This document shows, one piece after another, positions 3,105 through 34,156 of a stretch of DNA of 34,156 bases; the first letter of the stretch is position 1; each line of letters begins with the position of its first letter. The DNA is from a virus, in the IMG/VR virus record IMGVR_UViG_3300031951_000671, positions 1 to 34,156 of that record; one strand, given 5' to 3'. The notes under the pieces are model-generated. The model saw nothing but the letters and a program-made list of their open reading frames with translations, searched no databases and had not been told where the DNA came from. Both the position numbers and the translations under genes were made by a program.

Positions 3105-4163
3105 TCAAACTTGATAAAATCCATCTTCCCATAATGTTAATAATCTCTTAAAATATGCCTCAAATTGATATCTAATCATATCAGTAGAGTATTTTGCATA
3201 TGTGTCTGTGGCTATTTTCCTTGGATCTAATTTCTTTACCAGTTCCGCCGCCTCAATAAACTGAGCCAGAGTATTGCATCTAAAGCCATTAAAGCCGTTT
3301 TGGACGGTTTCTGTGAAGATACCCATATCAGTTGTTATGACAGGTGTTCCTGTGGCCATAGACTGGATATGAACATTACAGAAGGGTTCCTGATAGATGG
3401 TTGGTGTAAATGTAGCAATTGCTCCACCAAGTAAAGCAGCCCTGTCGTTAGCCTTTACCTCACCTATGTAAGTTCCATAAGGTGGAATATAGTCTCCAGA
3501 TCCTGCCATAATTAATTTAACGCCTAATCGTTCACAGGCTTGGCTTGCTATGTCTACGCCTTTGCGTTGAGTCATACGACCCATATAAAGATAATAATCT
3601 TTTTTCTCTAACTGCATCGGAAAATCTTCTACATCGTAATAACCATTTACAACGCCATCAAAGAAATTAATATCAATAGATGCAGCATTTCTAAATTGTG
3701 CTGACACAGCAGAACGCCATGTGTTTGATTCAAAGACTTTATATTTAGCAAATACTCCAGAGTAACCAATGCCCCATTCTACTGACATATGATCAGGAAA
3801 TGCATCTGCTATTGGCTTTTGAGCAGTGCCTCCTATAAGGCAGATAAAATCTTTTTGTTGAATGTGTCTTGCAATTGTTTGAATGGCATTACGATTAAAT
3901 ATCTGCCAATGTGGAAGAGTGTTATCAAATGAAGCAGATGTATAGTGCTTGTCTCCTACTGCTTCTAATCTATCTTGTTCTGGTAAGCATTGAATGTAGT
4001 CTGTCACATTTGCATCTGTACCTGGACCAGAGCCATATAGAAATACCTCATGACCAAGGGAAGTCATCATGTTGGCAAATCCAATAACTTTTTCGGTATA
4101 AGCGCAACTACTGAACTCTTTGGTTACTTGTGTATGAGGTAAAGCAACTAAGTGGAAACGCAT
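3105..4163 (-). CDS. Glycosyltransferase, GT4-like
   Basis: 352-residue GT-B glycosyltransferase. The carboxy half has the GT4 landmarks: YMGRMTQRKGVDIA near residue 193, a GEVKANDRAALLGGA stretch, then YQEPFCNVHIQSMATGTPVI, and an ETVQNGFNGF loop. The usual E-x7-E donor motif reads E-x7-Q. It should transfer a sugar from a nucleotide donor (often GDP-mannose or UDP-sugar) to a glycan or protein. The start overlaps the preceding small gene as TAATG. It lies apart from the main sugar cassette, separated by the lysis genes. It may act on the same virion or host glycan. Confidence 0.85.
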   Translation of the reverse strand: MRFHLVALPHTQVTKEFSSCAYTEKVIGFANMMTSLGHEVFLYGSGPGTDANVTDYIQCLPEQDRLEAVGDKHYTSASFDNTLPHWQIFNRNAIQTIARHIQQKDFICLIGGTAQKPIADAFPDHMSVEWGIGYSGVFAKYKVFESNTWRSAVSAQFRNAASIDINFFDGVVNGYYDVEDFPMQLEKKDYYLYMGRMTQRKGVDIASQACERLGVKLIMAGSGDYIPPYGTYIGEVKANDRAALLGGAIATFTPTIYQEPFCNVHIQSMATGTPVITTDMGIFTETVQNGFNGFRCNTLAQFIEAAELVKKLDPRKIATDTYAKYSTDMIRYQFEAYFKRLLTLWEDGFYQV

Positions 4164-4321
4164 TACTTACAGCAACCGTCTTCACAATCGCATTCAATCA
4201 GATCTTGTTCCATATTGTAAATAAGAAAATCTAATTGCTCAAGTGCATTGATTAATGCTATCTTGATTCCAATCAATTCCTCAGCAGGGTACTTCTGGTA
4301 GTTCTGGTTGTTCATATTCAT
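4163..4321 (-). CDS. Small Cys-rich-tail protein coupled to glycosyltransferase
   Basis: 52-residue protein not previously evident because it is short. A GGAGG ribosome binding site lies seven bases before the ATG at 4321. A second in-frame ATG at 4315 is less well placed. The middle is a predicted helix (ELIGIKIALINALEQLDFLI). The end is acidic with four cysteines (C-x-C and adjacent CC). The stop overlaps the glycosyltransferase ATG as TAATG. It overlaps the preceding gene by 41 bases. Function unknown. Confidence 0.6.
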   Translation of the reverse strand: MNMNNQNYQKYPAEELIGIKIALINALEQLDFLIYNMEQDLIECDCEDGCCK

Positions 4322-4475
4322 TATTGGTCCTCCCATTGCTCAGTTCCTCCATTACTTGTTGTCGTATTAACTGCGTCAAATTCAAAATCCATTGATTTGC
4401 CATTTCTAATTGCTGTGGATCATCTGATGACAGAATAATGTCTCCATCAACAAACTGCCATTTATTGTTTTCCAT
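4281..4475 (-). CDS. Hypothetical protein
   Basis: 64-residue protein. A short beta-like start with DGDIILSSDDPQQLEMAN is followed by a helix (QWILNLTQLIRQQVMEEL) and an acidic, Pro-rich tail. A GGAGA site sits before the ATG. It overlaps the gene before it by 14 bases and the gene after it by 41. No recognisable family. Confidence 0.55.
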   Translation of the reverse strand: MENNKWQFVDGDIILSSDDPQQLEMANQWILNLTQLIRQQVMEELSNGRTNNEYEQPELPEVPC

Positions 4476-4686
4476 AGTTGTCTCCGTTATATCGTTTGTT
4501 TCTTACATCTGCAAGTGTACTACCTATGTTAGGTAAGTCTTTTCCTGGATTCCGCTTTTGGTAAGCAGTGATGTATCTTTCAAGATATTCATCTACTAAT
4601 TGTAGCACTTCTTCATCAGTCATGTTATTTATATCTGATTCATTGTTGTGTTTCCAAAATCTTGATAGCAATCCTGGTTCTTTCAT
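4462..4686 (-). CDS. Hypothetical protein
   Basis: 74-residue charged protein, probably mostly helical (MTDEEVLQLVDEYLERYITAYQKR). It begins in an ATGA overlap with the small membrane protein, so it is coupled to it. Function not recognisable. Confidence 0.55.
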   Translation of the reverse strand: MKEPGLLSRFWKHNNESDINNMTDEEVLQLVDEYLERYITAYQKRNPGKDLPNIGSTLADVRNKRYNGDNYGKQ

Positions 4687-4790
4687 TTGTTACCTGTCCA
4701 AAGATAAAGGGCAAAGGCTGCTCCAAGCCCAATTGTTAAATTGCCTAAAATTATTCCTAAAGCACAACCACCAATAATATACTTCATCAT
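4683..4790 (-). CDS. Tiny membrane protein
   Basis: 35 residues with one long hydrophobic, Gly-rich stretch (residues 5-31), almost certainly membrane-inserted. A perfect AGGAGG lies upstream. The ATG at 4790 is four bases from it, and a second in-frame ATG at 4787 is seven bases away and may be the real start. The stop overlaps the next gene as ATGA. It is the first clearly translated gene after the promoter at 5202-5230. Confidence 0.7.
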   Translation of the reverse strand: MMKYIIGGCALGIILGNLTIGLGAAFALYLWTGNK

Positions 4791-4800
4791 ATTTCCTCCT

Positions 4801-5201
4801 GAATTGTCTAAATATAATTTTTAATATTTAAACATGCAAAGGCCCTATCCTTGTGTCCTCTAATGAATTGGCTTTTTAATATTATATATAAGGAACTATA
4901 TAACACCTAAAACATTAAATCCAATGATAATTCATTGACCTGGAGCGTTCACTAAATATATTTCTATATTTAACACACAACACTTTGATCCTCCCAGTGA
5001 CACGACCAAATGTGGATAGGCTACATTGTTTTGTAGATTTATAATTTTTTCTAATATGAACGAAGGGATAAACGCCTTTGTAAAGAAACCTTCTTGCGTA
5101 TAAAACTATGTGTGCTCGTCGTATACTTATGTCCATATTTATCTATTCAGTTGTTTGGCAGTCTTTTTAAAGAGTGACTTTCCATATAGACTCTTGGTAC
5201 T
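4801..5201 (-). other. Leader region of about 400 bases without a convincing gene
   Basis: Between the promoter candidate at 5202-5230 and the first good ribosome binding site at 4795-4800. It holds one open frame of 73 codons (4915-5136) with no ribosome binding site and an unusually basic, low-quality protein. The lower part (4801-4910) is very A+T-rich. I looked for a tRNA and found no T-loop or acceptor pairing. It could be an untranslated leader or a noncoding RNA. Confidence 0.4.
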
Positions 5202-5230
5202 ATTGTAGCAGATGAGTTTTTCTATTGCAA
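5202..5230 (-). promoter_or_regulatory. Sigma70-type promoter candidate
   Basis: Minus strand TTGCAA (5230-5225), 17-base spacer ending CATCTGC, then TACAAT (5207-5202). It lies eight bases beyond the U-tract of the terminator at 5239-5286, the usual end-of-one-operon, start-of-next layout. It would drive the small genes and the GT4 glycosyltransferase at 4790-3105. Confidence 0.72.
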
Positions 5231-5238
5231 ATTCCCGC

Positions 5239-5286
5239 AAAAAAAAATAACCTCCAAGGCGGAAATTGAGATAACTACCTTGGAGG
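5239..5286 (-). terminator. Intrinsic terminator after lysis genes
   Basis: Perfect 9-base inverted repeat CCTCCAAGG / CCTTGGAGG (5278-5286 and 5251-5259) with an 18-base loop, followed on the minus strand by TTA and nine T. It lies 89 bases after the stop of the transglycosylase-like gene. Confidence 0.85.
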
Positions 5287-5374
5287 CTATAGTCAGGAGG
5301 TGTTCTGACATTTATTATTGATTATGGCAACCAATATAATTATTATACCATCACGACTTGTATCATGTCAAACT

Positions 5375-5776
5375 CTAATACCAGCCTTTATTTTTGAAGT
5401 GTTCCCATGCATTACATGGATGAACATGTCTTCTTGAAATATATGAAAGGGTAGCAACTAATTGTGCTATTCCCGCATTGGATTTTTTCATGCCTAATCC
5501 TTCGTAAGTTGAATCAAGCATTTGGCCTATTCCACTGGCTGTAGAAATTGGATTTTCTGCTTTAGGATTCCAGGCTGATTCTTTTCCTATCAACTTGGTA
5601 AAGCATGAGAATTGTTCTTTTGTTAGCAATTCTTTCGCTACCGCCTTTGCATTGACCTGCATCATTGGAGGTCTTGGCTCATAAACTACTGGAACTGCTG
5701 GTTGTGGAGTACTTACTTGTAATAATAAAACTGCTATGACTACAAATAATCCTCCGATTATTGTATTTTTATTAAT
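5375..5776 (-). CDS. Membrane-anchored lytic transglycosylase-like protein (ATT start)
   Basis: Transglycosylase SLT-like domain that would cleave peptidoglycan glycan strands. The ATG at 5665 gives 96 residues with the family core: KLIGKESAWNPKAENP carrying the catalytic Glu, then SASGIGQML-like text (STASGIGQML) and the aromatic end. In frame upstream, without a stop, lie 37 more codons that read as a signal anchor: short basic start (NKN), a run TIIGGLFVVIAVLLLQ, then a Pro-rich linker. No ATG, GTG or TTG occurs there. The only well-placed start is ATT at 5776, seven bases after AAGGAG, giving 133 residues. It follows a terminator and a 13-codon leader ORF and ends before a terminator. A cytoplasmic 96-residue form from 5665 is the alternative. 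Confidence 0.65.
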   Translation of the reverse strand: MNKNTIIGGLFVVIAVLLLQVSTPQPAVPVVYEPRPPMMQVNAKAVAKELLTKEQFSCFTKLIGKESAWNPKAENPISTASGIGQMLDSTYEGLGMKKSNAGIAQLVATLSYISRRHVHPCNAWEHFKNKGWY

Positions 5777-5813
5777 AGGTATTCTCCTTGGTTAGCCCCA
5801 TGAATCGCCCCAT
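5772..5813 (-). CDS. 13-codon leader peptide
   Basis: ATG at 5813 after AAGGA, reading MGRFMGLTKENTY and stop. The stop TAA (5774-5772) shares one base with the ATT start of the transglycosylase-like gene, and the AAGGAG for that gene lies inside this ORF. Such overlap is typical of termination-reinitiation coupling and could explain how an ATT codon is used. Confidence 0.4.
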   Translation of the reverse strand: MGRFMGLTKENTY

Positions 5814-5892
5814 GAGTTTCCTTCCAGATGCCCTTTAAAAGCCGTATAAGGCGATTTCAGACACTTTCAGGCCTTGGTTGTCCCGTTATGTT

Positions 5893-5919
5893 AAAAAGGC
5901 CCAGAATTGCTTCCAGGCC
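5893..5919 (-). terminator. Intrinsic terminator after holin
   Basis: Minus strand 9-pair stem (GGCCTGGAA with TTCTGGGCC, two G-U pairs) closed by a GCAA tetraloop and followed directly by TTTTT. It lies 69 bases after the holin stop codon. Confidence 0.85.
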
Positions 5920-5971
5920 CTCTGCAGTGATAGTCCAAATTCCCTTAAGTGTGAGTGTGACCTGACTGCAT

Positions 5972-6007
5972 AGTATAAGTATAGCAGTTATTTGCTATTT
6001 ACGCCAA
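5972..6007 (-). promoter_or_regulatory. Promoter candidate inside end of holin gene
   Basis: Minus strand TTGGCG (6007-6002), 18-base spacer ending ACTGC, then tandem TATACT boxes (5983-5978 and 5977-5972). The start of the predicted transcript (TATACT-TATA-C-TATGCAGT) matches the one at 3045 in all but one base. Any transcript would meet the terminator at 5893-5919 after about 75 bases. Confidence 0.45.
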
Positions 6008-6203
6008 ACTCTTTTTCATTTGGCTGTAGAGCCTTTGCTAAAGGTGCAAGCAAGCCTGCTAAAAATGCGTTTGCTAATACCTTTGGATCAGTGATTCCGC
6101 TCATGTAGAGGGCTACAACTGAGGCAAATGATGCTCTTGCCCATGACTGGGCCATTGCAATTGCTTTTTCTTTATTGGACTTTACGATTTTGGCTTTAGC
6201 CAT
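5988..6203 (-). CDS. Holin-like protein
   Basis: 71-residue protein with a basic amino end, one or two hydrophobic segments (WARASFASVVALYMSGI near 21-37 and VLANAFLAGLLAPLAKAL near 42-59) and a charged tail. Size, topology and position next to the endolysin fit a small phage holin, which would open the cytoplasmic membrane for the lysin at the end of infection. It overlaps the endolysin gene by eight bases and is followed by a strong terminator. Confidence 0.7.
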   Translation of the reverse strand: MAKAKIVKSNKEKAIAMAQSWARASFASVVALYMSGITDPKVLANAFLAGLLAPLAKALQPNEKEFGVNSK

Positions 6204-6672
6204 TTTTCTTACTCCTTCTTAGCCCCATATTTTTTATTCTTGCTTTTACTTCGTCAGGTGTTTCAACTATCTCAAAATGCATTTCGTCTTTGCGCTTTGC
6301 ATAGTCTCCGCCCCAACGAATTCCGTACTTGCTGCACAACTCTCTTATGATACGAGCCTGCTGCTTTGTAAAAGTATTTTCCGCATGTAATGGATGCTTA
6401 GTAGCGTTTAGATCTATGGCTGTTCCTGATGCGTGATTTGATAAATCAGAATCACTACCTCTAACATCCCTATAGGCGTATGCCCAATCGTCAAACACTC
6501 CCTCATCAATAGGTTCTACCTGAGCATGAAACTCAGCAGCAAAGGCAGTCAAGATTACTCCTGCGTCTTTCTGTAGTCTCATTTTCCTGTCAGTGCCCTT
6601 TATTTTAAAGATCTGTATGTCTATTTCTTTTTGATCTTTAGATGCTGGCCATCCATTTTGTGATTTTTGCAT
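6196..6672 (-). CDS. Endolysin, M15 (VanY-like) peptidase
   Basis: 158-residue zinc peptidase of the M15 family, which cuts peptide cross-links in peptidoglycan. The metal-site pattern is visible: SNHASGTAIDL with His80 and Asp87, and EMHFEI with the second His132. The WGGDY segment at 120-124 before it is also typical. There is no signal peptide and no separate cell-wall binding domain; the length matches single-domain phage M15 lysins. It starts as TAATG after a membrane protein and is followed by the holin. Confidence 0.88.
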   Translation of the reverse strand: MQKSQNGWPASKDQKEIDIQIFKIKGTDRKMRLQKDAGVILTAFAAEFHAQVEPIDEGVFDDWAYAYRDVRGSDSDLSNHASGTAIDLNATKHPLHAENTFTKQQARIIRELCSKYGIRWGGDYAKRKDEMHFEIVETPDEVKARIKNMGLRRSKKNG

Positions 6673-6908
6673 TACTCGCCCTTTGTTTGAAATGTTTTCT
6701 TTTTCTTGGGTTGATTTGATTCTATTAGAAGCACCATAATTTGATCCATTCTTGCCTCTAATCTATTTACCTGATCTTTTATGCTTGAGCCACCATTAGG
6801 CTTCAACTCAGATAAATAATGTTTCACGAGAAACCTTACGGATCCCGCAAACGCTACTGCTATGGTGATTGCAGATACTATAAAGCCTGCCCACTGCTCT
6901 ATGCTCAT
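6672..6908 (-). CDS. Lysis-cassette membrane protein (holin or antiholin-like)
   Basis: 78-residue protein starting at an ATGA overlap with the epimerase gene. One transmembrane segment (about residues 6-27) is followed by a short linker, a coiled-coil helix (SIKDQVNRLEARMDQIMVLL) and a basic tail. Proteins of this shape are common beside phage endolysins and may act as holin or antiholin. With the gene at 5988 this makes two candidate holins around one lysin; their roles cannot be separated from sequence. Confidence 0.6.
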   Translation of the reverse strand: MSIEQWAGFIVSAITIAVAFAGSVRFLVKHYLSELKPNGGSSIKDQVNRLEARMDQIMVLLIESNQPKKKKTFQTKGE

Positions 6909-7861
6909 TTGTTTAGTTCTCCTTGTATCCATTGATAAGTCTGGGTAAGGCCATACTCCAAGTTTTCATCTGGAGCGTAACCCAACACAGATGTTATTAG
7001 TTCATTGTGTGAAGTTCTTGCATGGACACCAAGAGGACCTGGCACATGCTTCTTAGTTAGTTTCTTGCCTGCTATTTCACAGACAATATCCACCAACTCA
7101 TTTATAGACACATTTCTCTCAGAACCAATATTTATTGGCTCAAAGTACTTGTCTTGTCTATAAAAATCTACTGTTGCTTTGATACATTCATCAATGTATA
7201 AGAAGGATCTATGTTGATTACCATCGCCCCAGATTTCTATTTCATCTGTTGCTTTTGCTACCTTACGACAAATTGCTGCTGGTGCCTTTTCTTTACCGCC
7301 ATCCCATGTACCGTATGGTCCATATACATTGTGGTATCTGGCTATCTTGTTCTTCATGCCATAATTTCTATTGTAGGCAAGATATAAACGCTCACTAAAT
7401 AATTTTTCCCAACCGTACTCTGTGTCAGGTGCTGCTGGATATACGGAATCTTCTCTTGTGTTTATGCTGCCTGGATCCATCTGGTTATATTCTGGATACA
7501 CACAAGCGGTAGATGAAAAGAATATAGATTTAACTCTTACCTTCTCTGCTTGTTTTAAAACATTAACATTTATGAGTATTGAATTACCCATAACCTCTGC
7601 GTCATTATCTCCAGAGTTGATATAACCTGCTCCACCCATGTCAGCAGCCAATTGATACACTTCATCAAATCTTATTGGCATTACTTTTTCTATAACGCTT
7701 GGATCTCTTAAATCTCCAATTACAAAGTCATCAGCGTATGTTTCCCAGTGCTCTGGATGTTTAAGATCTACTCCACGAACCCAGAAGCCATCTTCTTTTA
7801 GTCTTTTGACTAAGTGGCTACCTATAAATCCGCCTGCTCCAAGTACTAATGCTGTCTTCAT
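6905..7861 (-). CDS. GDP-mannose 3,5-epimerase-like enzyme
   Basis: 318-residue extended SDR enzyme. GAGGFIGSH at 8-16 is the NAD-binding loop. The rest resembles plant GDP-mannose 3,5-epimerase (GME): AADMGGAGYI near 72-81, SSTACVYPE with Cys120, YGWEK with Tyr149 and Lys153, the HNVYGPYGTW segment, and GGKEKAPAAICRK with Lys192. These four residues lie at a constant offset of 25 from Arabidopsis Cys145, Tyr174, Lys178 and Lys217, the known catalytic set. It should convert GDP-D-mannose to GDP-L-galactose (and GDP-L-gulose). The ATG at 7861 overlaps the carbamoyltransferase stop as ATGA. It probably supplies donor to the fucosyltransferase-like enzymes upstream. A related NDP-sugar epimerase is possible but less likely. 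Confidence 0.82.
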   Translation of the reverse strand: MKTALVLGAGGFIGSHLVKRLKEDGFWVRGVDLKHPEHWETYADDFVIGDLRDPSVIEKVMPIRFDEVYQLAADMGGAGYINSGDNDAEVMGNSILINVNVLKQAEKVRVKSIFFSSTACVYPEYNQMDPGSINTREDSVYPAAPDTEYGWEKLFSERLYLAYNRNYGMKNKIARYHNVYGPYGTWDGGKEKAPAAICRKVAKATDEIEIWGDGNQHRSFLYIDECIKATVDFYRQDKYFEPINIGSERNVSINELVDIVCEIAGKKLTKKHVPGPLGVHARTSHNELITSVLGYAPDENLEYGLTQTYQWIQGELNK

Positions 7862-9300
7862 TTTCGCCCCGCTATCTTTGTATTGTAAGTTTTCTCCCAC
7901 TCAACAATGTCATTCTCGTCATTGAGAAGAGGTTGCCCTTTTATATTTAGGCTTGTGTTTAACAACACTGGAACTCCAGTCATGGCATACCAGTTTGATA
8001 ACACTTCGTATAATCCTGGATGTTGTTCTTTATTGACTGTTTGTACTCTTGAAGTACCGTCTTTGTGAACGACAGCAGGAATCTTGTCTGGTTGTAAGCA
8101 CTCTACTGCATACTGCATGTACGGACTTGTAAAGTCCATCTTGAACCATTTATGAGCATGTTCTTCCATCACTACAGGAGCAAATGGTCTAAATAGTTCA
8201 CGCTTCTTAATTAAATTTACTTTGTCTTTGATATCAGGATCTCTTGGATCAGCCAGAATACTTCTGTTACCCAAAGCCCTTGGACCGTACTCTGCTCTGC
8301 CTGAAGCAACAGCAACTACTTTGTCTCTGATCAATCCTGTAATAATATCTGTTACTGGATATGGACCACCTAAGTCATAGCCAAGATATGGATGTTGCCA
8401 GTTTACATGCTTACCATACGCTGCTGCGGCGGCACCTAAAGAAGAGCCTGCATCACCAGGATTAGGCATGATCCAAATATCATCAAATAATTCCCACAGT
8501 CTTGTATTGGCTGAACAATTCAAAGCACATCCACCCATAAATACAAGGTTTTTCTTGCCAGTTATTCTTTTAACATGCATCATAAATTCATAAAGCCTAA
8601 CTGTATAAACATGTTGTACAGCAGCAGCAATATCAAATCTATCCTGCTCTGTTATTGGAATTGGCCAGTCATGTATTCCTCTATGGAAGTTATATGCTTG
8701 TCTATCTTTGTTGTCAAAATATGATTCTATGTATTTATAATACTTACGCCAATCTCCATATGCCGCCATTCCCATGAAGATATATTCTTCTTCGTTAGGC
8801 TTTAGTCCTACAAGATTTGTAAAGGCTGAGTAGAAAAGACCAAAACTAAATGGATAGTTTTTCTTCTCAACTGACTTTATGTTAGAGCCTTCGCCTACCC
8901 AAATAGATGTTGTGTTAAATTCACCTATTGCATCTAAGACTACTATTGCTGCGTCATCAAATTTACTTGTGTAGTACCCTGCTGCAGCGTGAGAGTAGTG
9001 GTGGCTAAATGATTCTCTTGGCACCCATTTCAAATCTGCTCTGTTGAGATAATAGGGCTTTCCTCCGCCAAAGCCACCACGAGTAATTATTCTCGCCTTC
9101 TTCAGCCATCTATGTTCGTAATACGCTATTCTGTCTGGTTCTCCGTAAGACAATGCATAATCTATTAATTCGTCATTTGTATACCAGTCATTTTTTTCTT
9201 TGCTAAATCTTTCAGCATGTCCAGCAAATAATATGTTTCCGTCTTCTATAAGAGTTACTGATGCATCATGTGTTGTTTCATTGATTCCAAGAATTTTCAT
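7858..9300 (-). CDS. NodU/CmcH-type O-carbamoyltransferase
   Basis: 480-residue enzyme that transfers a carbamoyl group from carbamoyl phosphate, through carbamoyl-adenylate, to a sugar or antibiotic hydroxyl. Family marks: HDASVTL with His11, SHHYSHAAAGYY at about 99-110 (the metal-binding His cluster), GGCALNCSANTRL, PNPGDAGSSLGAA, and EYGPRALGNRSILADPR in the YrdC-like or carboxy half, then PVLLNTSLNIKGQP. Family members are often 550 residues or more; this one ends soon after the NTSLN motif, so the last helix region is shorter. In NodU the target is the sugar of a lipo-oligosaccharide. Here the neighbours suggest a sugar on a phage or host glycan. Overlaps both neighbours. Confidence 0.9.
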   Translation of the reverse strand: MKILGINETTHDASVTLIEDGNILFAGHAERFSKEKNDWYTNDELIDYALSYGEPDRIAYYEHRWLKKARIITRGGFGGGKPYYLNRADLKWVPRESFSHHYSHAAAGYYTSKFDDAAIVVLDAIGEFNTTSIWVGEGSNIKSVEKKNYPFSFGLFYSAFTNLVGLKPNEEEYIFMGMAAYGDWRKYYKYIESYFDNKDRQAYNFHRGIHDWPIPITEQDRFDIAAAVQHVYTVRLYEFMMHVKRITGKKNLVFMGGCALNCSANTRLWELFDDIWIMPNPGDAGSSLGAAAAAYGKHVNWQHPYLGYDLGGPYPVTDIITGLIRDKVVAVASGRAEYGPRALGNRSILADPRDPDIKDKVNLIKKRELFRPFAPVVMEEHAHKWFKMDFTSPYMQYAVECLQPDKIPAVVHKDGTSRVQTVNKEQHPGLYEVLSNWYAMTGVPVLLNTSLNIKGQPLLNDENDIVEWEKTYNTKIAGRK

Positions 9301-10168
9301 AACGCCCCTCTTTGTTTAGTTGTCCAACTTTATTTTTAAATCTGTTTAATATATGACTCATGCCTTCTTTTGGTGGCATAGCAATAACCATGTTTGTAGA
9401 TAATAATCCAGCAGATTGACTAAATGCAGAGTTCCCAACTATCAAAACTTTGGCGGTAAGCATAAGAATAAAAGCATCATAGGTATCTAAGTAATCAATT
9501 ATCTCAACATTAGGGTAAGCACTTTTAAGTAAATCTATATCAATTCCTGTTGTTGGATATCTACCAAACTCATCTTTATGTAAATATGGCTGGCAATTAA
9601 ACATCTTTTGTTTCTCGCCTACAGGAGTATATGGCTCTTCGTTTCTTGCATCAGTAGTAATAATGACTCTTGGGTTATCTAATTGTAAATCTTGTATTAT
9701 CTTAGGTATGTCTTTTAGTAGGTTAAAGTAGAACTTGTCTTCTGTGTACCTTGGATTTTCAGGCACAGCATTTCCTCGTCTAATATGTATGACTATTGAG
9801 TTATGAACTGTGTCAGAAAACTTATTAAATTCTGGTGCATAGTCTAAGAAATCTGTTTCTGCAATAATTCCTGGAGCATGTGACCATCCAAGACCAATAT
9901 GAGGACATAATGTTTTATCTGGAATAGAATCAAAATCTATATCTTTCCAAGGGTTTAGTAGAACATTATTAAATTTCTCAAGCATCTCAGCATATTTTGG
10001 GTCATCTTCACTCTTGATATTATCTGATGAATGTATTAAGAACCACTTAAGTGGAGTATCTTCAAACAATTTATTCTGTTGTTTAGCATAGGACATGGCA
10101 TAGATCTTTTTCCATAGCATGGCACCTATTCCATCATCTGTTGGAAATTCTTTAACTATTTCTGGCAT
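9278..10168 (-). CDS. Fucosyltransferase-like glycosyltransferase
   Basis: 296-residue protein with features of the fucosyltransferase GT-B group (GT11/GT65-like). The amino end has the DGIGAMLWKKIYAMSYA segment. IVIHIRRGN at 125-133 matches the HxRRGD-like donor motif. VIITTDAR follows, and near the end VGNSAFSQSAGLLS is the usual carboxy-terminal glycan or nucleotide loop. It would use GDP-L-fucose or, in this context, GDP-L-galactose. It overlaps the SGNH gene by 13 bases and the carbamoyltransferase by 23. The acceptor cannot be told from sequence. Confidence 0.7.
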   Translation of the reverse strand: MPEIVKEFPTDDGIGAMLWKKIYAMSYAKQQNKLFEDTPLKWFLIHSSDNIKSEDDPKYAEMLEKFNNVLLNPWKDIDFDSIPDKTLCPHIGLGWSHAPGIIAETDFLDYAPEFNKFSDTVHNSIVIHIRRGNAVPENPRYTEDKFYFNLLKDIPKIIQDLQLDNPRVIITTDARNEEPYTPVGEKQKMFNCQPYLHKDEFGRYPTTGIDIDLLKSAYPNVEIIDYLDTYDAFILMLTAKVLIVGNSAFSQSAGLLSTNMVIAMPPKEGMSHILNRFKNKVGQLNKEGRYENSWNQ

Positions 10169-11088
10169 AGTTGTTCATTCCAAAATTCTGCGATATGTAA
10201 CTGTCTATGCAATCCTGGATGAGGCCAATGAGCACCTGGCCCCCAATCTCCAGAAAATTTATGATAATCGTAGGCATAGTCAAATACATCTGGATGCTTT
10301 TCTTTCCATTCTGAGTGGCATCCTGGCCAATTTATCATTTCATAATGAGGAGGTAAGTCAGAAATATTATTAACAAAAACTCCAAATTCAAAACTTGATG
10401 GAAATTGCTTTCTTGTAGGATCTGGTATGTAGTGTCTAAAGTTATCTTTTAAAAATTGTTCTTGTTCATCTGTTAGTCCATTTGACCAGCAAGACCAATA
10501 TAACTTTATTCCTGCCGCTTCACAAAACGCCTCAAGCATCTTGATATGATCCAAATTCTGGTAATAAACCCATTCATAGGGCAAGATTTCCTGATAATTC
10601 CAAGGGGCTGTAGCCTTAGTGACTTTAGGTGAGTGGTTGGCATACCAATCCCTAAGCCCACTTGCATACCCATCTATAAAATAAAATCTCTCAAAATTAG
10701 CAAAATGAGCAATGACTATATCTGGCTTATACTGATATTGATGTATGGCTCCAAAGAAACTGGAAACTAACTTATTTGCAGAGGCTCCAGAGTAGGCTAT
10801 AGAAGCCACAGGAGCGTCATAGAGGCCTGATAGCAGTTGGGGCCATGCCATATCATTAGGAAGGCCCTGTCCAAGCGTTATAGAGCATCCTAAAGCCATT
10901 ACAGAGGGTCTTGTGGACAATTCTATGGACCTCAGACCATCGCTATTCCATTCATAGTTATATTCTGGTCTTGCAACCTCAGAATGACTGGCTAAAATTG
11001 GCTGGGATTGAGAATAATCTTTCTTAGGATTAGTCTTATCATAACCAATATGAGGAATAACTCTGGGATTAAATACATCAAATAGCAT
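10156..11088 (-). CDS. SGNH hydrolase-like protein
   Basis: 310-residue protein with the SGNH (GDSL-like) hydrolase pattern. Block I reads ALGCSITLGQG with the nucleophile Ser69. Block V near the end reads HWPHPGLHRQLHIAEF, giving the catalytic His with a Pro-Gly-x-x-His run. SGNH enzymes remove or transfer acyl groups on carbohydrates. There is no signal peptide, so it should act inside the cell. Its place among sugar enzymes suggests editing or adding acetyl groups on a glycan. Start is a TAATG overlap with a 25-codon gene. Confidence 0.72.
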   Translation of the reverse strand: MLFDVFNPRVIPHIGYDKTNPKKDYSQSQPILASHSEVARPEYNYEWNSDGLRSIELSTRPSVMALGCSITLGQGLPNDMAWPQLLSGLYDAPVASIAYSGASANKLVSSFFGAIHQYQYKPDIVIAHFANFERFYFIDGYASGLRDWYANHSPKVTKATAPWNYQEILPYEWVYYQNLDHIKMLEAFCEAAGIKLYWSCWSNGLTDEQEQFLKDNFRHYIPDPTRKQFPSSFEFGVFVNNISDLPPHYEMINWPGCHSEWKEKHPDVFDYAYDYHKFSGDWGPGAHWPHPGLHRQLHIAEFWNEQLCQK

Positions 11089-11165
11089 TAGTAGATTACT
11101 CCACCTTTAGGTATTTTTCTGTATTTACGCCACATCTTAAACTTATATTTAATTCTTTTTAACAT
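11088..11165 (-). CDS. 25-residue basic peptide
   Basis: Tiny ORF with coupled junctions at both ends. Its ATG overlaps the last codons of the glycosyltransferase gene (AAATGTTAA), and its TAA overlaps the next ATG as TAATG. The peptide has about eleven Lys or Arg in 25 residues (MLKRIKYKFKMWRKYRKIPK then GGVIY). It could bind nucleic acid or membrane, or serve only to couple translation. No family recognised. Confidence 0.5.
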   Translation of the reverse strand: MLKRIKYKFKMWRKYRKIPKGGVIY

Positions 11166-12199
11166 TTTGACTCTTCCCATTCACGCCACCACATTTTCCT
11201 GCCATTATCTAATGGATAGTTAAACCAGGAGTATGCCCATCCTTCTGCTTTTGGTGGGTTATCAAAGAAATCCCATGTCTCAATGCCCTTTTGATTTCTT
11301 ATTCTATGGATATAAGCACTGTAAGTACTTCCTGATGTACCCACAAAATTTACAGAATCATGTAGGACTAAATTGCAGATTAAGCCAAATACCACTTCGT
11401 CTTGAAATGGCAGGGATTTAAAGTCATCTGCAAAGTTATTTACAATGTACTCATCTAATAGAGTAAATCTATGTTTATTATCTTGAACCATTTTATGTCC
11501 TGGTTCACAGGTAGATACTACAATTGGTATATTATTCTGTTCAAATTTATTTAGCCAGTCTTCAAACATTTCTTGGGTAGTCTCAAACATTTTAATATGA
11601 TCAGATAGCCTTAAATGCATACCCTGAAATGTACCCAAAGATGCAGATATTTTGTGAGCCAAATCAGTATATTCCTTCTTAAATTTAACTGAAGATAATG
11701 TCTTATTTAGTTCAGGGCTTCTGCCATAAAAGAATCTTGAGTACCAGCCTAATGTTCCTTTTAGGTGTATTGGCTTATCTAATGGTAATCTTTGTCTACC
11801 TTCTGCAAATGCCAGTTCATATTCTGTTATTTCTGGCTGATTACTATAGTAGTAGTTATTCATCATATCACCTATGACTACTTCTTCTTGCTTGAATGTA
11901 TTTATTTTCTCATCAACAACTATGATGTTTGCATCAAAATCAAGAAGGTCTAAAAGATGTGGGAACTGGTCAGGATTGGTAAAACCTTCTCTTTGTCCGT
12001 TGTACCATCTTGAGGGTGTGTAGATTGGAACAGTTCTAAAATCATATAGATTGTCACCATTATTGCTTACATAGTGCACTACAACAGGTGCTTTTGTTTC
12101 ATGTGACAGACCTATTGCTAATTCCAGGCTCATTACCTGATTGATTAGACCTGTAGGATTCCACAGTTGGAAGAATATTTTATCTGTTGTTCCATTCAT
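11159..12199 (-). CDS. O-fucosyltransferase-like glycosyltransferase
   Basis: 346-residue protein. The start IFFQLWNPTGLINQVMSLELA resembles the GxxNQ nucleotide-sugar loop of O-fucosyltransferases and NodZ-like enzymes. GMHLRLSDH at 193-201 is the HxR-x-x-D motif. FVGTSGSTYSAYIHRIR near 288-304 is the usual final motif that binds the nucleotide. The donor would be a GDP-deoxy or GDP-L-sugar. In eukaryotes such enzymes modify Ser or Thr of proteins, and in rhizobia the sugar of Nod factor. It overlaps the second oxygenase by 20 bases. A paralogue-like enzyme lies at 9278-10168. Confidence 0.72.
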   Translation of the reverse strand: MNGTTDKIFFQLWNPTGLINQVMSLELAIGLSHETKAPVVVHYVSNNGDNLYDFRTVPIYTPSRWYNGQREGFTNPDQFPHLLDLLDFDANIIVVDEKINTFKQEEVVIGDMMNNYYYSNQPEITEYELAFAEGRQRLPLDKPIHLKGTLGWYSRFFYGRSPELNKTLSSVKFKKEYTDLAHKISASLGTFQGMHLRLSDHIKMFETTQEMFEDWLNKFEQNNIPIVVSTCEPGHKMVQDNKHRFTLLDEYIVNNFADDFKSLPFQDEVVFGLICNLVLHDSVNFVGTSGSTYSAYIHRIRNQKGIETWDFFDNPPKAEGWAYSWFNYPLDNGRKMWWREWEESKC

Positions 12200-12740
12200 C
12201 TTCTGTTATTTCGCCCCTAATTACTCTTAGATAATCTGGCCCTTTAGTAAAATACCAATGGTCAGGTTCTGCAAAGTGGAAGAAAATCATAGCAACATGA
12301 TTAGTCTCTGGATTTGGAAACTTCTCTCTCCAGTGCCATTGATCATTTCCATAGTAGGCAAGTGCCTGATTTGGATAAAGCGTATAAGCCTTATCATCTA
12401 CAAACAGGTCCCATGGCTCTACCTGATAAACACACATATCAAGAGTATAAGTACATGCGTTATCGTCTTTATGCTTGTATAAACTTGGTTCAGGATCTTG
12501 ACCTTCATAATGTGCAAACAAGGCATATGTAGGCAGTAAACCTTCGCTATTAAATGCTTCTCTTGCCTTTGGCACTAATTTATCTGCTAATTCTTTTAGA
12601 ATAGGTAGGCTATTGTCTGCAATACAGTACCTGCTAAATCCCGCAGAATATTCAAAACTCTTAGGATTTGCCAGGGCAAGTAGAAGTCTGTCATAGTCTT
12701 CTTGACTTAAAAGGTCATTTACAACTAATGGATCTTTCAT
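12180..12740 (-). CDS. 2-oxoglutarate/Fe(II) oxygenase-like protein
   Basis: 186-residue protein starting at an ATGA overlap with the preceding oxygenase (a TTG nine bases earlier is less likely). It has the double-stranded beta-helix pattern of this family: YKHKDDNACTYTL provides the His-x-Asp metal ligands (about residues 90 and 92). DQWHWREKFP holds the likely distal His with a nearby basic residue, and HVAMIFFHFAE closes the fold. It should hydroxylate a protein or small molecule. Similarity to the prolyl hydroxylase group is weaker than in its neighbour. Substrate unknown. Confidence 0.65.
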   Translation of the reverse strand: MKDPLVVNDLLSQEDYDRLLLALANPKSFEYSAGFSRYCIADNSLPILKELADKLVPKAREAFNSEGLLPTYALFAHYEGQDPEPSLYKHKDDNACTYTLDMCVYQVEPWDLFVDDKAYTLYPNQALAYYGNDQWHWREKFPNPETNHVAMIFFHFAEPDHWYFTKGPDYLRVIRGEITEDEWNNR

Positions 12741-13333
12741 CGCAACCAACTTACTACGGCATATCTTGTTCCTTCAACAACTGGAGAAACAGAATGGTTA
12801 TAAACAAATGTAGATGGAAATACAATCATCTGATTAGCCTTTGGCTTAAATGTGATACCAAAACGAGGGAAGTTAATTTCTCCACCTGTGTAATTTTCAT
12901 TTAAATAATAAACAGTAGATACTCGTCTATGAAATTCACTGCAATCATCTATATGATTAGTAAACTTTTGGCCTTTTCCATATTTTAGAATTCCAAAAGT
13001 ATCATGCCAGTCAGTATCTATAGCAAACATTGCCTTGTAGTCTGCTTCAAGAGGATCAAAATGAGTAAAGAATAAATCACTAAGATTTTTATTAAATAGA
13101 TCTGCTAAACTTGCAGTATTTACTTCTGTTAGTCCTCTGTAAGGAACACCTATGATACTTGTATCTCTTGCATTTGGATTGACATGGTTAGCATCTTGCT
13201 CTTTTACCCTTGCCTCGCCCCAAGATATGCCAGCAGACTGCATTCCTTCTTCTATTTCATTATATAGATTTTCGCTATCAGGAATTACATCGCTATAAAC
13301 TACTATTCCAGGTGCTATTTCTTCTTTATTCAT
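12737..13333 (-). CDS. Prolyl 4-hydroxylase-like 2-oxoglutarate/Fe(II) oxygenase
   Basis: 198-residue single-domain oxygenase. The metal triad is clear: NHIDDC with His127 and Asp129, and YNHSV with His180. Arg190 (GTRYAVVSW) would bind the 2-oxoglutarate carboxylate. The strand VSTVYYLNENYTGGEINFP is the signature of the prolyl 4-hydroxylase group. It would use O2, 2-oxoglutarate and Fe(II) to hydroxylate a side chain, likely Pro or Lys in a protein. A phage Pro-rich protein lies two genes before it. Similar proteins also occur in cyanophages where the substrate is unknown. Confidence 0.85.
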   Translation of the reverse strand: MNKEEIAPGIVVYSDVIPDSENLYNEIEEGMQSAGISWGEARVKEQDANHVNPNARDTSIIGVPYRGLTEVNTASLADLFNKNLSDLFFTHFDPLEADYKAMFAIDTDWHDTFGILKYGKGQKFTNHIDDCSEFHRRVSTVYYLNENYTGGEINFPRFGITFKPKANQMIVFPSTFVYNHSVSPVVEGTRYAVVSWLR

Positions 13334-26907: not shown

Positions 26908-30745
<3,838 letters not shown>

Positions 30746-30753
<8 letters not shown>

Positions 30754-31253: not shown

Positions 31254-32759
31254 TTATACGAAGTGTATTCTTGGCGTGATTGGCTTTTGTTTAGGTGCTG
31301 TTGCCCTATCATAACCAAATATTGCTGCTACAGCAGCGTCAATCTTACGCTTATTTGTAGCCTTTGCTACCATCAGACCTCTTGAGGAAGTCTTAGTAAC
31401 TGTGTTTGCTATATGTCTGGCAAGTCTTGGATCACCATCATGAGTAAATGATTGATTCATAATTGCCTCGTAAAATTTCTGTGTTGCTGGAACCATACGC
31501 TCTGCAGAGTTTGGATAAGATACGATAGGCATACCTTGTTCCTCAAGAATCATAAATGTTCTGGCCCATCTTGCTGGATCAAAGCAAATTTCAAGAGTGT
31601 TAGTATCTTTATCTCTATAAGCGTCAATAATTGTCTTCTCTACCTCTGCAATTGGTACAGTCCACATAGGATCTGGATCTACTTCAGGTATCTCCCATAG
31701 TCCTACTATCTTTAGATGAGGCTTTTCACCACCTAAGTACCATCCAATTATAGCAGTTGCATCGTTAGAAAAAGACCCATCAAATGCCAGAACAACATCT
31801 TCACCTTTAATCGCCCCACGATTCTTAAGTTCTAATGCGTCCCAGGCATCTGAGGGAATCCATGCTTGGCCTGTGCTTACCCACATATTGAGTCTTTTAG
31901 TTTTAAACTCATTTTCTGGAGTAAGTAACACAGCAGATTGCATATCCTCTTCAGATAAAATATCTCCAAAAGAAGGATTTGCTAAGTGCCAATTCTCAGG
32001 ATCCTTGTAATTCAATTTATCATTGCCTTGCCACCATGCAAAAAAGAAGGAAGGATCTTCAACTTCACCTTTTGCTATTTGTATTCCACGATTATACATA
32101 TCGTAGCAAACAGAATCTTTACCATTTGAATCATATTTTGAACCAGCAGTAGTAATTGCTACAAGCATTGGTTCTTCACGAGCACCCATAGATAGAGATA
32201 AAACATCATATAGTTCTCTATTTGGTTGTGCATGTAACTCATCAATTACAATAAATGTAGAGTTAAGACCTTCTTTTGTATATGCTTCAGAAGACAAAGC
32301 CCTATACACAGAACCAGTCAAAGGGTTATAAATTGTATTTTGATAAACCTCTAAAATGTCTTTTAACTCTGGTTCTAACTCAATCATCTTCTTTACTGTC
32401 TTAAAGATAATACGAGCCTGTTCTTTATCTGCCGCCGCAGAATAGATCTGACCACCATTAACACCCAAAACCAACTGCTCTAAAACAAGAGAAGCAATTA
32501 GGGCTGACTTTCCATTTTTACGAGCAATGCCAATTAAGGCACGACGATGTTTTAGAAGCCCATCTTCTCTTTCAGCATATAGATGCAGAAGAAGATCTTT
32601 TTGCCAGGGCCTAAGAAGGAACTTATCGCCAGTCTTACCAGCAATAGAGTCTTCCGTTAAATGGCAGAGAGTCTCAATAAAGTCTATGACTTCATAACCA
32701 CGAGTGTTGCCTAACTCAGTTTCTGAAACAGGTGAAAGATATGTAGGTGGCCACGCCAT
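31254..32759 (-). CDS. Terminase large subunit
   Basis: 501-residue packaging motor. The ATPase part has the PWQKDLLLHLYA adenine segment near 51-62, an unusual Walker A IGIARKNGKSALIA at 76-88, and Walker B FIVIDELHA at 169-177 with Asp173 and Glu174. The nuclease half has VVLAFDGSFSNDATAI near 300 and the FDPARWAR segment, and the DAAVAA end. The length is normal. It makes the genome-length cuts and packs DNA into the prohead. The S1-domain gene lies directly before it with one base between. Confidence 0.93.
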   Translation of the reverse strand: MAWPPTYLSPVSETELGNTRGYEVIDFIETLCHLTEDSIAGKTGDKFLLRPWQKDLLLHLYAEREDGLLKHRRALIGIARKNGKSALIASLVLEQLVLGVNGGQIYSAAADKEQARIIFKTVKKMIELEPELKDILEVYQNTIYNPLTGSVYRALSSEAYTKEGLNSTFIVIDELHAQPNRELYDVLSLSMGAREEPMLVAITTAGSKYDSNGKDSVCYDMYNRGIQIAKGEVEDPSFFFAWWQGNDKLNYKDPENWHLANPSFGDILSEEDMQSAVLLTPENEFKTKRLNMWVSTGQAWIPSDAWDALELKNRGAIKGEDVVLAFDGSFSNDATAIIGWYLGGEKPHLKIVGLWEIPEVDPDPMWTVPIAEVEKTIIDAYRDKDTNTLEICFDPARWARTFMILEEQGMPIVSYPNSAERMVPATQKFYEAIMNQSFTHDGDPRLARHIANTVTKTSSRGLMVAKATNKRKIDAAVAAIFGYDRATAPKQKPITPRIHFV

Positions 32760-32760
32760 G

Positions 32761-33561
32761 CTAACCTCTAAGTGCTAACGACAGCCTGCTCTTTTCAAAG
32801 TCAATCTCTATGATTTCTACTTCTACTTCATGACCAACAGTAAATTGATCAGGTGTAAATTCAGCCATCTTGGATTTATGTACCAGGCCAGCAAGTAGAC
32901 CTATCTCAACAAAGACTCCATATTCAGTAATACCTGAAACTAAGCCCTTATGGATTTGACCTACTGTTAATTTGGCAAATTCTATTTGCTTATCTTCTTT
33001 TTGCATTTGCTCAATAAGAGTGCGGCGATTTAGAACTATACTTCCCTTAGCCCTATCAATTGAATTGATAATAAATTCGGCCTCATGGCCTACATATGGA
33101 GTAAAGTCTGTAACCCTATTTACATCAACTAAGGATCCTGGAAGGAAGGCCTTTAGGCCAATGTCCACCATTAATCCACCTTTAACAACTTTAGTCACTT
33201 TGCCAATAACAGGAATAGACAATTCAAATCTATTCTGCATATCATTCCAAATGGCTTCTGTCTCACCTTGTTTTAGAGACAATATGTATTGGCCTTCATC
33301 AGTCTTATTTATGACTATGCCTTCTACTACCTGCCCAATTTGGACTACTTCATTAATCTCTACATTCTTGCGATTGGTCAATTCATGCTTTGGCACAAAT
33401 GCCTCGCTCTTGTCACCAATATCTACTAAGACGCCATCACGATCAATTTGGACAATAGTCCCAGACACTGGTTGCCCATGTCCAAAATATTTCATGGATG
33501 CGTCAATGGCAGCCATAAAGTCTTCTGCTGTTCCTATGTCGTTAATTGCTATTTGATTCAT
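32761..33561 (-). CDS. S1-domain RNA-binding protein (ribosomal protein S1-like)
   Basis: 266-residue protein made of three S1 domains (about 30-97, 113-180, 196-264). The first carries GTIVQIDRDGVLVDIGDKSEA. The second carries VTKVVKGGLMVDIGLKAFLP, with the SLVDVNRV stretch that follows. The third carries GITEYGVFVEIGLLAGLVHKS. The order and details match the start of actinobacterial ribosomal protein S1, which has four domains. It would bind mRNA or the 30S subunit and may favour phage messages or replace host S1. It lies between the two terminase genes, overlapping the small terminase by 20 bases. A packaging-related RNA role cannot be excluded. Confidence 0.85.
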   Translation of the reverse strand: MNQIAINDIGTAEDFMAAIDASMKYFGHGQPVSGTIVQIDRDGVLVDIGDKSEAFVPKHELTNRKNVEINEVVQIGQVVEGIVINKTDEGQYILSLKQGETEAIWNDMQNRFELSIPVIGKVTKVVKGGLMVDIGLKAFLPGSLVDVNRVTDFTPYVGHEAEFIINSIDRAKGSIVLNRRTLIEQMQKEDKQIEFAKLTVGQIHKGLVSGITEYGVFVEIGLLAGLVHKSKMAEFTPDQFTVGHEVEVEIIEIDFEKSRLSLALRG

Positions 33562-34072
33562 TTATTTGTTCAGCCCCTGTTTCTACGATTATCGTTTCAG
33601 CCTCAATTATATCATTGTTGGCTCTGGCACGATTAGCCCTTCTTTCCAAAAGTTTGTCAATAGAAGTTGCAGCCTTGACCTCTGCAACGCCCAAGCGTGA
33701 TCTCGCAATGGGATCAAAGCCAAGAGATGTTAACGCATCAGTGTAGGCTTTGTTAATTGCGACAAACGCTCTTCCATCGTTGCTCTCAAGGGTAGCCATA
33801 TATTTATTTCTGGCCGCTTCAGATGCATCAGCCAAGAAAGCAGCATTAGCAATTGCATCAATATCAGAAACAGGCGATAGCCAAGTTACGGCCATAGCCC
33901 AAGCCCTGTCCCAAAGTTTTTTACCTGCCTCGCCTAATTGCTCAGGGTAGGCTGGAATCTCACGAGCCATGGGTAAATGCGTAATATTATTCAAATCAGG
34001 CAAAGGTCTTTGGCCAGGATTTCCCAACAATCGTTTTAATTCGTTAGGTTTTGGTGGTCTTCCCGCAGTCAT
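33542..34072 (-). CDS. Terminase small subunit, P27 family
   Basis: 176-residue protein. The amino end TAGRPPKPNELKRLLGNPGQRPLP is the hallmark of P27-type small terminases. The middle helix group (LGEAGKKLWDRAWAMAVTWLS) and the end (GVAEVKAATSIDKLLERRAN) fit as well. It recognises the packaging start and loads the large subunit. Normally it is directly followed by the large terminase; here an S1 gene is inserted between. The short region to the right edge (34073-34156) is A+T-rich with GGAG before this gene and nothing else clear. Confidence 0.92.
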   Translation of the reverse strand: MTAGRPPKPNELKRLLGNPGQRPLPDLNNITHLPMAREIPAYPEQLGEAGKKLWDRAWAMAVTWLSPVSDIDAIANAAFLADASEAARNKYMATLESNDGRAFVAINKAYTDALTSLGFDPIARSRLGVAEVKAATSIDKLLERRANRARANNDIIEAETIIVETGAEQINESNSN

Positions 34073-34156
34073 ATTATTTTATTCTCCAATGTCCGATTTG
34101 CGTATTTTATTCTAAAATATCCTGATTCTGTAATTTCGCAGAGAAATACAGAACAG

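Follow-up and report, generated by a model that had tools for sequence, protein, structure and literature searches.

A truncated homologue of actinobacterial ribosomal protein S1 encoded between the terminase genes of a phage lineage

The S1 gene and its neighbours

The window, by which we mean the whole 34,156-nucleotide stretch analysed here (IMG/VR record IMGVR_UViG_3300031951_000671), contains on its minus strand, which an earlier note on this DNA had not given, a gene for a 266-aa protein resembling domains 1-3 of bS1 (32761..33561; ATG start, TAG stop). It lies between the genes for the terminase small subunit (TerS; 33542..34072, minus strand; phrog_83, 8e-14) and the terminase large subunit (TerL; 31254..32759, minus strand; phrog_9, TerL_ATPase). 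TerS overlaps the start of S1 by 20 bp, and the S1 stop codon ends one base before the TerL ATG (32759). A Shine-Dalgarno-like AGGGG for S1 is located within the 3' end of TerS (33574..33578, minus strand), and a G-run was found at or near this position in nearly all of 30 representatives. The Shine-Dalgarno-like site for TerL, AGAGG (32765..32769, minus strand), is formed by the last S1 codons (AGA GGT), and its position ahead of the TerL ATG suggests coupled translation. The terminase, portal, protease and capsid genes in the window give the S1 gene a true viral genome setting. A search for tRNA genes in the window found none.

Other parts of the window were also inspected. On the upstream side of TerS the contig continues for 84 bases (34073-34156), and several relatives (L001, L003, L006, L010 and L123) have their first base 54-85 bases ahead of TerS. 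These shared ends suggest a physical, cos-like genome end. Adjoining the portal gene is a gene for a 1281-aa protein (26908-30753, minus strand) with long collagen-like G-x-T repeats and C-terminal repeated NxAxG-type motifs, which is probably a fibre or head decoration protein. A cluster of glycosyltransferase, nucleotide-sugar epimerase, Nol-like carbamoyltransferase and 2OG-Fe(II)-oxygenase-like genes (3105-13333, minus strand) perhaps serves to decorate DNA or the virion with sugars.

Pfam S1 matched three stretches of the 266-aa protein (E 2.7e-33), which, together with the TerS and TerL flanks, bears out the earlier description of three S1 domains between the small and large terminase genes. 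The likeness to domains 1-3 of actinobacterial RpsA that had been noticed at the same time also held: the top NCBIfam model was PRK07899, the actinobacterial 30S S1 (258 bits, residues 2-265 matching positions 9-277 of 486 in the model), and the best PDB chain was mycobacterial bS1 (8wi7_b, E 1.9e-74). Among the NCBIfam runners-up, PNPase reached 46 bits, and no other S1-domain protein exceeded 60 bits. Because the generic S1 proteins PNPase, RNase R and GSP13 score so far below the bS1 model, the phage protein does not group with PNPase or Tex, the result that the earlier note had named in advance as contradicting its reading. NCBIfam bit scores and the PDB and Foldseek rankings all put bS1 ahead of PNPase, Tex, RNase R and GSP13 in similarity to the protein. 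At 266 aa and 258 bits, against an NCBIfam equivalog cut-off of 691, it falls short of full bS1 and is thus a truncated homologue and not a complete bS1. Judged by these comparisons, the phage protein is an ortholog of actinobacterial bS1 domains 1-3 and not a PNPase or Tex protein. A PHROGs search returned no family for it.

Domain anatomy and conserved residues

The protein begins with a segment that corresponds by homology to the helix with which bS1 docks on uS2 (residues 1-27, predicted helix 12-21; 33481..33561, minus strand), followed by S1 domain 1, with predicted OB strands (residues 31-95; 33277..33471, minus strand), domain 2 (residues 118-178; 33028..33210, minus strand) and a domain 3 of the RNA-binding type (residues 203-264; 32770..32955, minus strand). 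An AlphaFold model (mean pLDDT 83, pTM 0.53) has the same helix and three OB domains at about these positions, joined by helical linkers, and the top Foldseek matches of this model were bS1 chains in ribosomal (30S) complexes (9gux_B, E 1.8e-21). The phage protein stops after domain 3; the actinobacterial bS1 proteins compared with it are 442-489 aa long.

To interpret conserved positions, we relied on residue roles defined in E. coli S1 and assigned phage counterparts by alignment. E. coli F5 and K43 contact uS2 (PMC10123108); they correspond to F15 and to K51 of domain 1, K43 lying at the uS2 Zn pocket. The docking residues F15, I19, D47 and K51 are invariant in all 69 distinct phage S1 proteins, as are the domain 2 pocket residues K127 and F139 (E. 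coli K117 and F130). In domain 3, the RNA-binding residues F217, H228, D254 and R259 are likewise invariant in 69 of 69 proteins, whose pairwise identity goes down to 43%, and position 214 is kept as Y or F. Read from the alignment, the RNA-binding residue set is absent from domains 1 and 2. In domain 3 of the phage proteins, the loop that reads SWKHIDHP in bacteria is four residues shorter. The N-terminal segment agrees with the bacterial consensus at 63%, domain 1 at 56%, domain 2 at 52% and domain 3 at 41%. This gradient, together with the shortened loop, suggests that docking was kept while the RNA side moved.

This pattern bears on two ways in which the protein might act without helping phage mRNAs to be translated. 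It could be a competitive inhibitor that docks at uS2, displaces host bS1 and shuts off bS1-dependent host translation. The docking residues are the best-kept part of the protein, and overexpressed E. coli domain 1 or domains 1-2 displace S1 and halt bulk translation (PMC3296737). However, such a shutoff needs domain 1 or domains 1-2 only, yet the RNA-binding residues of domain 3 are kept in every protein, and a location in the packaging operon speaks against an early shutoff protein; we therefore consider an inhibitor unlikely. A role away from the ribosome strikes us as rather improbable too. Here the protein would bind phage transcripts or RNA polymerase and affect stability, transcription cycling or RNase control, much as host S1 works with Qbeta replicase or T4 RegB. 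Domains 1-3 of S1 do act outside ribosomes in Qbeta replicase, with domain 3 binding RNA (PMC4200798), and domain 3 is the most diverged from bacteria of the three phage domains, but the invariant counterparts of the uS2-contact residues F5 and K43 argue for the ribosome, although OB1-OB2 also anchor Qbeta replicase.

Distribution, history and hosts

IMG/VR, scanned with the protein itself and then with alignments, yielded 27, 96 and 131 relatives, and the loci fetched contain at least 87 distinct S1 DNA sequences. The order TerS-S1-TerL, which the earlier note had proposed looking for in other phages, recurs throughout: on contigs that reach far enough, S1 directly adjoins TerL in 86 of 86 cases and TerS in 75 of 76. 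The sole exception on the TerS side is L154, where an additional ORF (601-1377, 258 aa) intervenes; it overlaps the ends of TerS and S1 and, read by eye, resembles a SAM-dependent methyltransferase. The 69 distinct complete S1 proteins are 258-269 aa long, and the longest S1-bearing contigs measure 32-34 kb. In a comparison of records G507-G516 and the window, GC content is uniform in S1-bearing genomes, at 38-39%; in the S1-lacking relatives examined it is 41-54%.

The annotated phage collection contained no genuine close relative of the phage S1. Its best matches, in the two phage-labelled records examined, CAKLQH020000011.1 (L029) and MW495066.1 (L030), turned out to lie in bacterial chromosome stretches (cmk-rpsA-himD and ispH-rpsA-rplU-rpmA), so their rpsA genes are not to be counted as viral. 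Other longer matches were in unannotated or unverified records, and those to Lak phages were partial only. Such mislabelled contigs raise the question of whether the S1 gene itself is cellular contamination or functionless cargo. Against this stand the terminase, portal and capsid neighbours, the at least 87 distinct copies, a median dN/dS of 0.21 and the lack of any loss seen; with no copies outside a viral context and no broken copies observed, we regard this explanation as refuted. Likewise, a chance gene is excluded because at least 87 distinct viral copies occupy the same place with a dN/dS of about 0.2.

When 94 distinct TerL sequences were placed in a tree, those from S1-bearing contigs formed one clade, within which the single sequence scored as lacking S1 (L229) comes from a contig that starts inside TerL. 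S1-lacking relatives (57-69% TerL identity) have TerS and TerL adjacent, as does phiPsal1, an isolate phage of Pontimonas that is without S1. A single gain is consistent with the distribution of S1 on the TerL tree, and no loss was observed. Distances between S1 proteins track those between TerL proteins (Mantel r 0.77), which indicates that the gene was inherited with its neighbourhood. Median dN/dS was 0.21 for S1, 0.16 for TerS and 0.08 for TerL, and the phage S1 is under purifying selection. This close linkage, with its fixed place between terS and terL and shared pattern of distances, would be expected if S1 were a packaging accessory that acts alongside TerS and TerL, perhaps by bridging them or by clearing RNA or ribosomes off the DNA ahead of packaging. 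However, a single insertion also explains the linkage, close relatives and phiPsal1 have adjacent terS and terL genes without S1, and the residues kept are of the ribosomal type. We consider a packaging role very improbable.

The phage S1 is mostly 44-48% identical to bS1 of the class Actinomycetes, 36-45% identical to bS1 of other actinobacterial classes and 25-35% identical to homologues from outside the actinobacteria. All phage S1 proteins form one clade (100% SH-aLRT), and the stem leading to it measures 0.99 changes per column. Attachment of this clade to three actinobacterial groups was indistinguishable: a small-genome, low-GC order, whose rpsA set we label Nanopelagicales-like on those two traits alone, other Actinomycetes and other actinobacterial classes all went unrejected (AU p 0.46-0.67). 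Placement among RpsA proteins, which had been proposed as a way to name the host, thus points to the phylum Actinomycetota and not to a group within it; the donor phylum was likely actinobacterial. The long stem and the equally fitting attachments make S1 a weak host marker, informative for the phylum at most, and the suggestion that it was the best host marker in the window did not survive, as TerL supports the phylum equally well. No TerL match was found in 296 genomes of the small-genome, low-GC order, an empty result that proves little. The nearest annotated isolate phages by TerL infect Pontimonas and Streptomyces. The S1-bearing lineage probably consists of small phages of actinobacteria.

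A possible minimal bS1 for host ribosomes

Domains 1-3 of E. coli S1 constitute a minimal S1 still able to bind the 30S subunit and mRNA and to melt RNA (PMC3858243), and E. coli fragments that dock, domain 1 or domains 1-2, displace native S1 from ribosomes (PMC3296737). The phage protein resembles these domains, as well as OB1-3 in Qbeta replicase, in having the same cut, with an anchor to the ribosome or replicase and one RNA-binding domain (PMC3858243, PMC4200798), but the E. coli and Qbeta fragments were cut from a cellular protein in the laboratory, whereas here the same cut has been kept by evolution in a phage gene. We therefore favour, at a probability of about 55%, the idea that the phage protein is a minimal bS1 that docks on the host 30S subunit and favours phage mRNAs, for which we infer docking, bS1 displacement, mRNA preference and time of expression. 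An ancestor of the phage clade would have captured an actinobacterial rpsA and inserted it between terS and terL, keeping domains 1-3 and losing domain 4 and the C-terminal tail. S1 would be made from the packaging operon through Shine-Dalgarno starts, likely with coupling. The N-terminal helix and domain 1 would compete with host bS1 for docking at uS2 on the host 30S subunit. At the mRNA exit channel, domains 2 and 3 may then grip the 5' regions of abundant phage mRNAs and unfold them, which would tilt initiation in favour of phage transcripts.

The kept docking and RNA-binding residues agree with the suggestion in the earlier note that the protein could bring phage mRNAs to host 30S subunits, but two genome-wide predictions made from it failed. 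S1-bearing phages did not avoid Shine-Dalgarno sites: a 4-mer match was found in 50-77% of genes in six S1-bearing genomes, against 5-17% at control positions and 51-58% of genes in S1-lacking relatives. Nor were start regions more structured in S1-bearing phages; the difference was slightly reversed (mean z -0.01, versus -0.27 without S1). Both analyses took the first ATG in each long ORF as the gene start, which is a crude call but was made alike for the two sets. Given this normal Shine-Dalgarno use and start structure, any effect on initiation would occur without a genome-wide change in leader type. The position of the gene in the packaging operon, not among evident early takeover genes, also counts against a minimal bS1. 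A further point against it is that Gram-positives depend less on S1 than E. coli does.

Phage-encoded ribosomal proteins are already known (PMC6375957), and viral bS21 and bL12 have been shown elsewhere to be incorporated into ribosomes. Like the genes for virus-encoded bS21, bL12, bL9 and HPF, the S1 gene described here encodes a ribosomal protein, lies in genuine phage genomes and evolves under purifying selection; unlike the viral ribosomal proteins surveyed, it is one fixed syntenic gene in small phages. That survey omitted bS1 as a functionally ambiguous domain (PMC6375957). The rpS1-like proteins of huge phages, including Lak phages, also have S1 repeats and a proposed role in initiation (PMC7162821), but the Lak match spans only 38% of the protein, and Shine-Dalgarno sites are rare in huge phages with S1 and common here (50-77% of genes). 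In huge phages, bS1 has been hard to prove (PMC7162821). Homologues of rpsA were reported from uncontaminated viromes in 2013 without genomic context, which was called for (PMC3877843) and which the TerS-S1-TerL locus now supplies. We found no paper describing this arrangement in the literature searched, mostly without subscription journals and preprints. Compared with actinobacterial bS1 (PRK07899; 8wi7 chain b), the phage protein has a collinear N-terminal helix and domains 1, 2 and 3, 44-48% identity, and the docking and domain 3 RNA-binding residues, but it differs in lacking domain 4 and the C-terminal tail (266 versus 442-489 aa), in the four-residue deletion in the domain 3 loop, and in forming a separate long-branched clade at a viral locus. 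We regard the phage protein as a viral homologue of bS1 in truncated form.

Among viral ribosomal proteins, bS1 has so far been unsettled: context-free in viromes, left out of the main survey and hard to prove in huge phages. The small-phage gene combines genomic context and orthology with docking residues and a history of single origin. As the ribosome-docking and first RNA-binding parts are kept, the virus may re-equip host ribosomes, and we tentatively propose virus-specific ribosomes, in which a viral bS1 lacking domain 4 would replace host bS1 at the exit channel and change which mRNAs initiate, a trait fixed across the lineage since one capture. The natural minimal S1 of domains 1-3, together with close phage relatives with and without S1, offers a compact, testable system. 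If docking proves true, it would provide direct evidence of small phages re-equipping host ribosomes at the step of mRNA recruitment.
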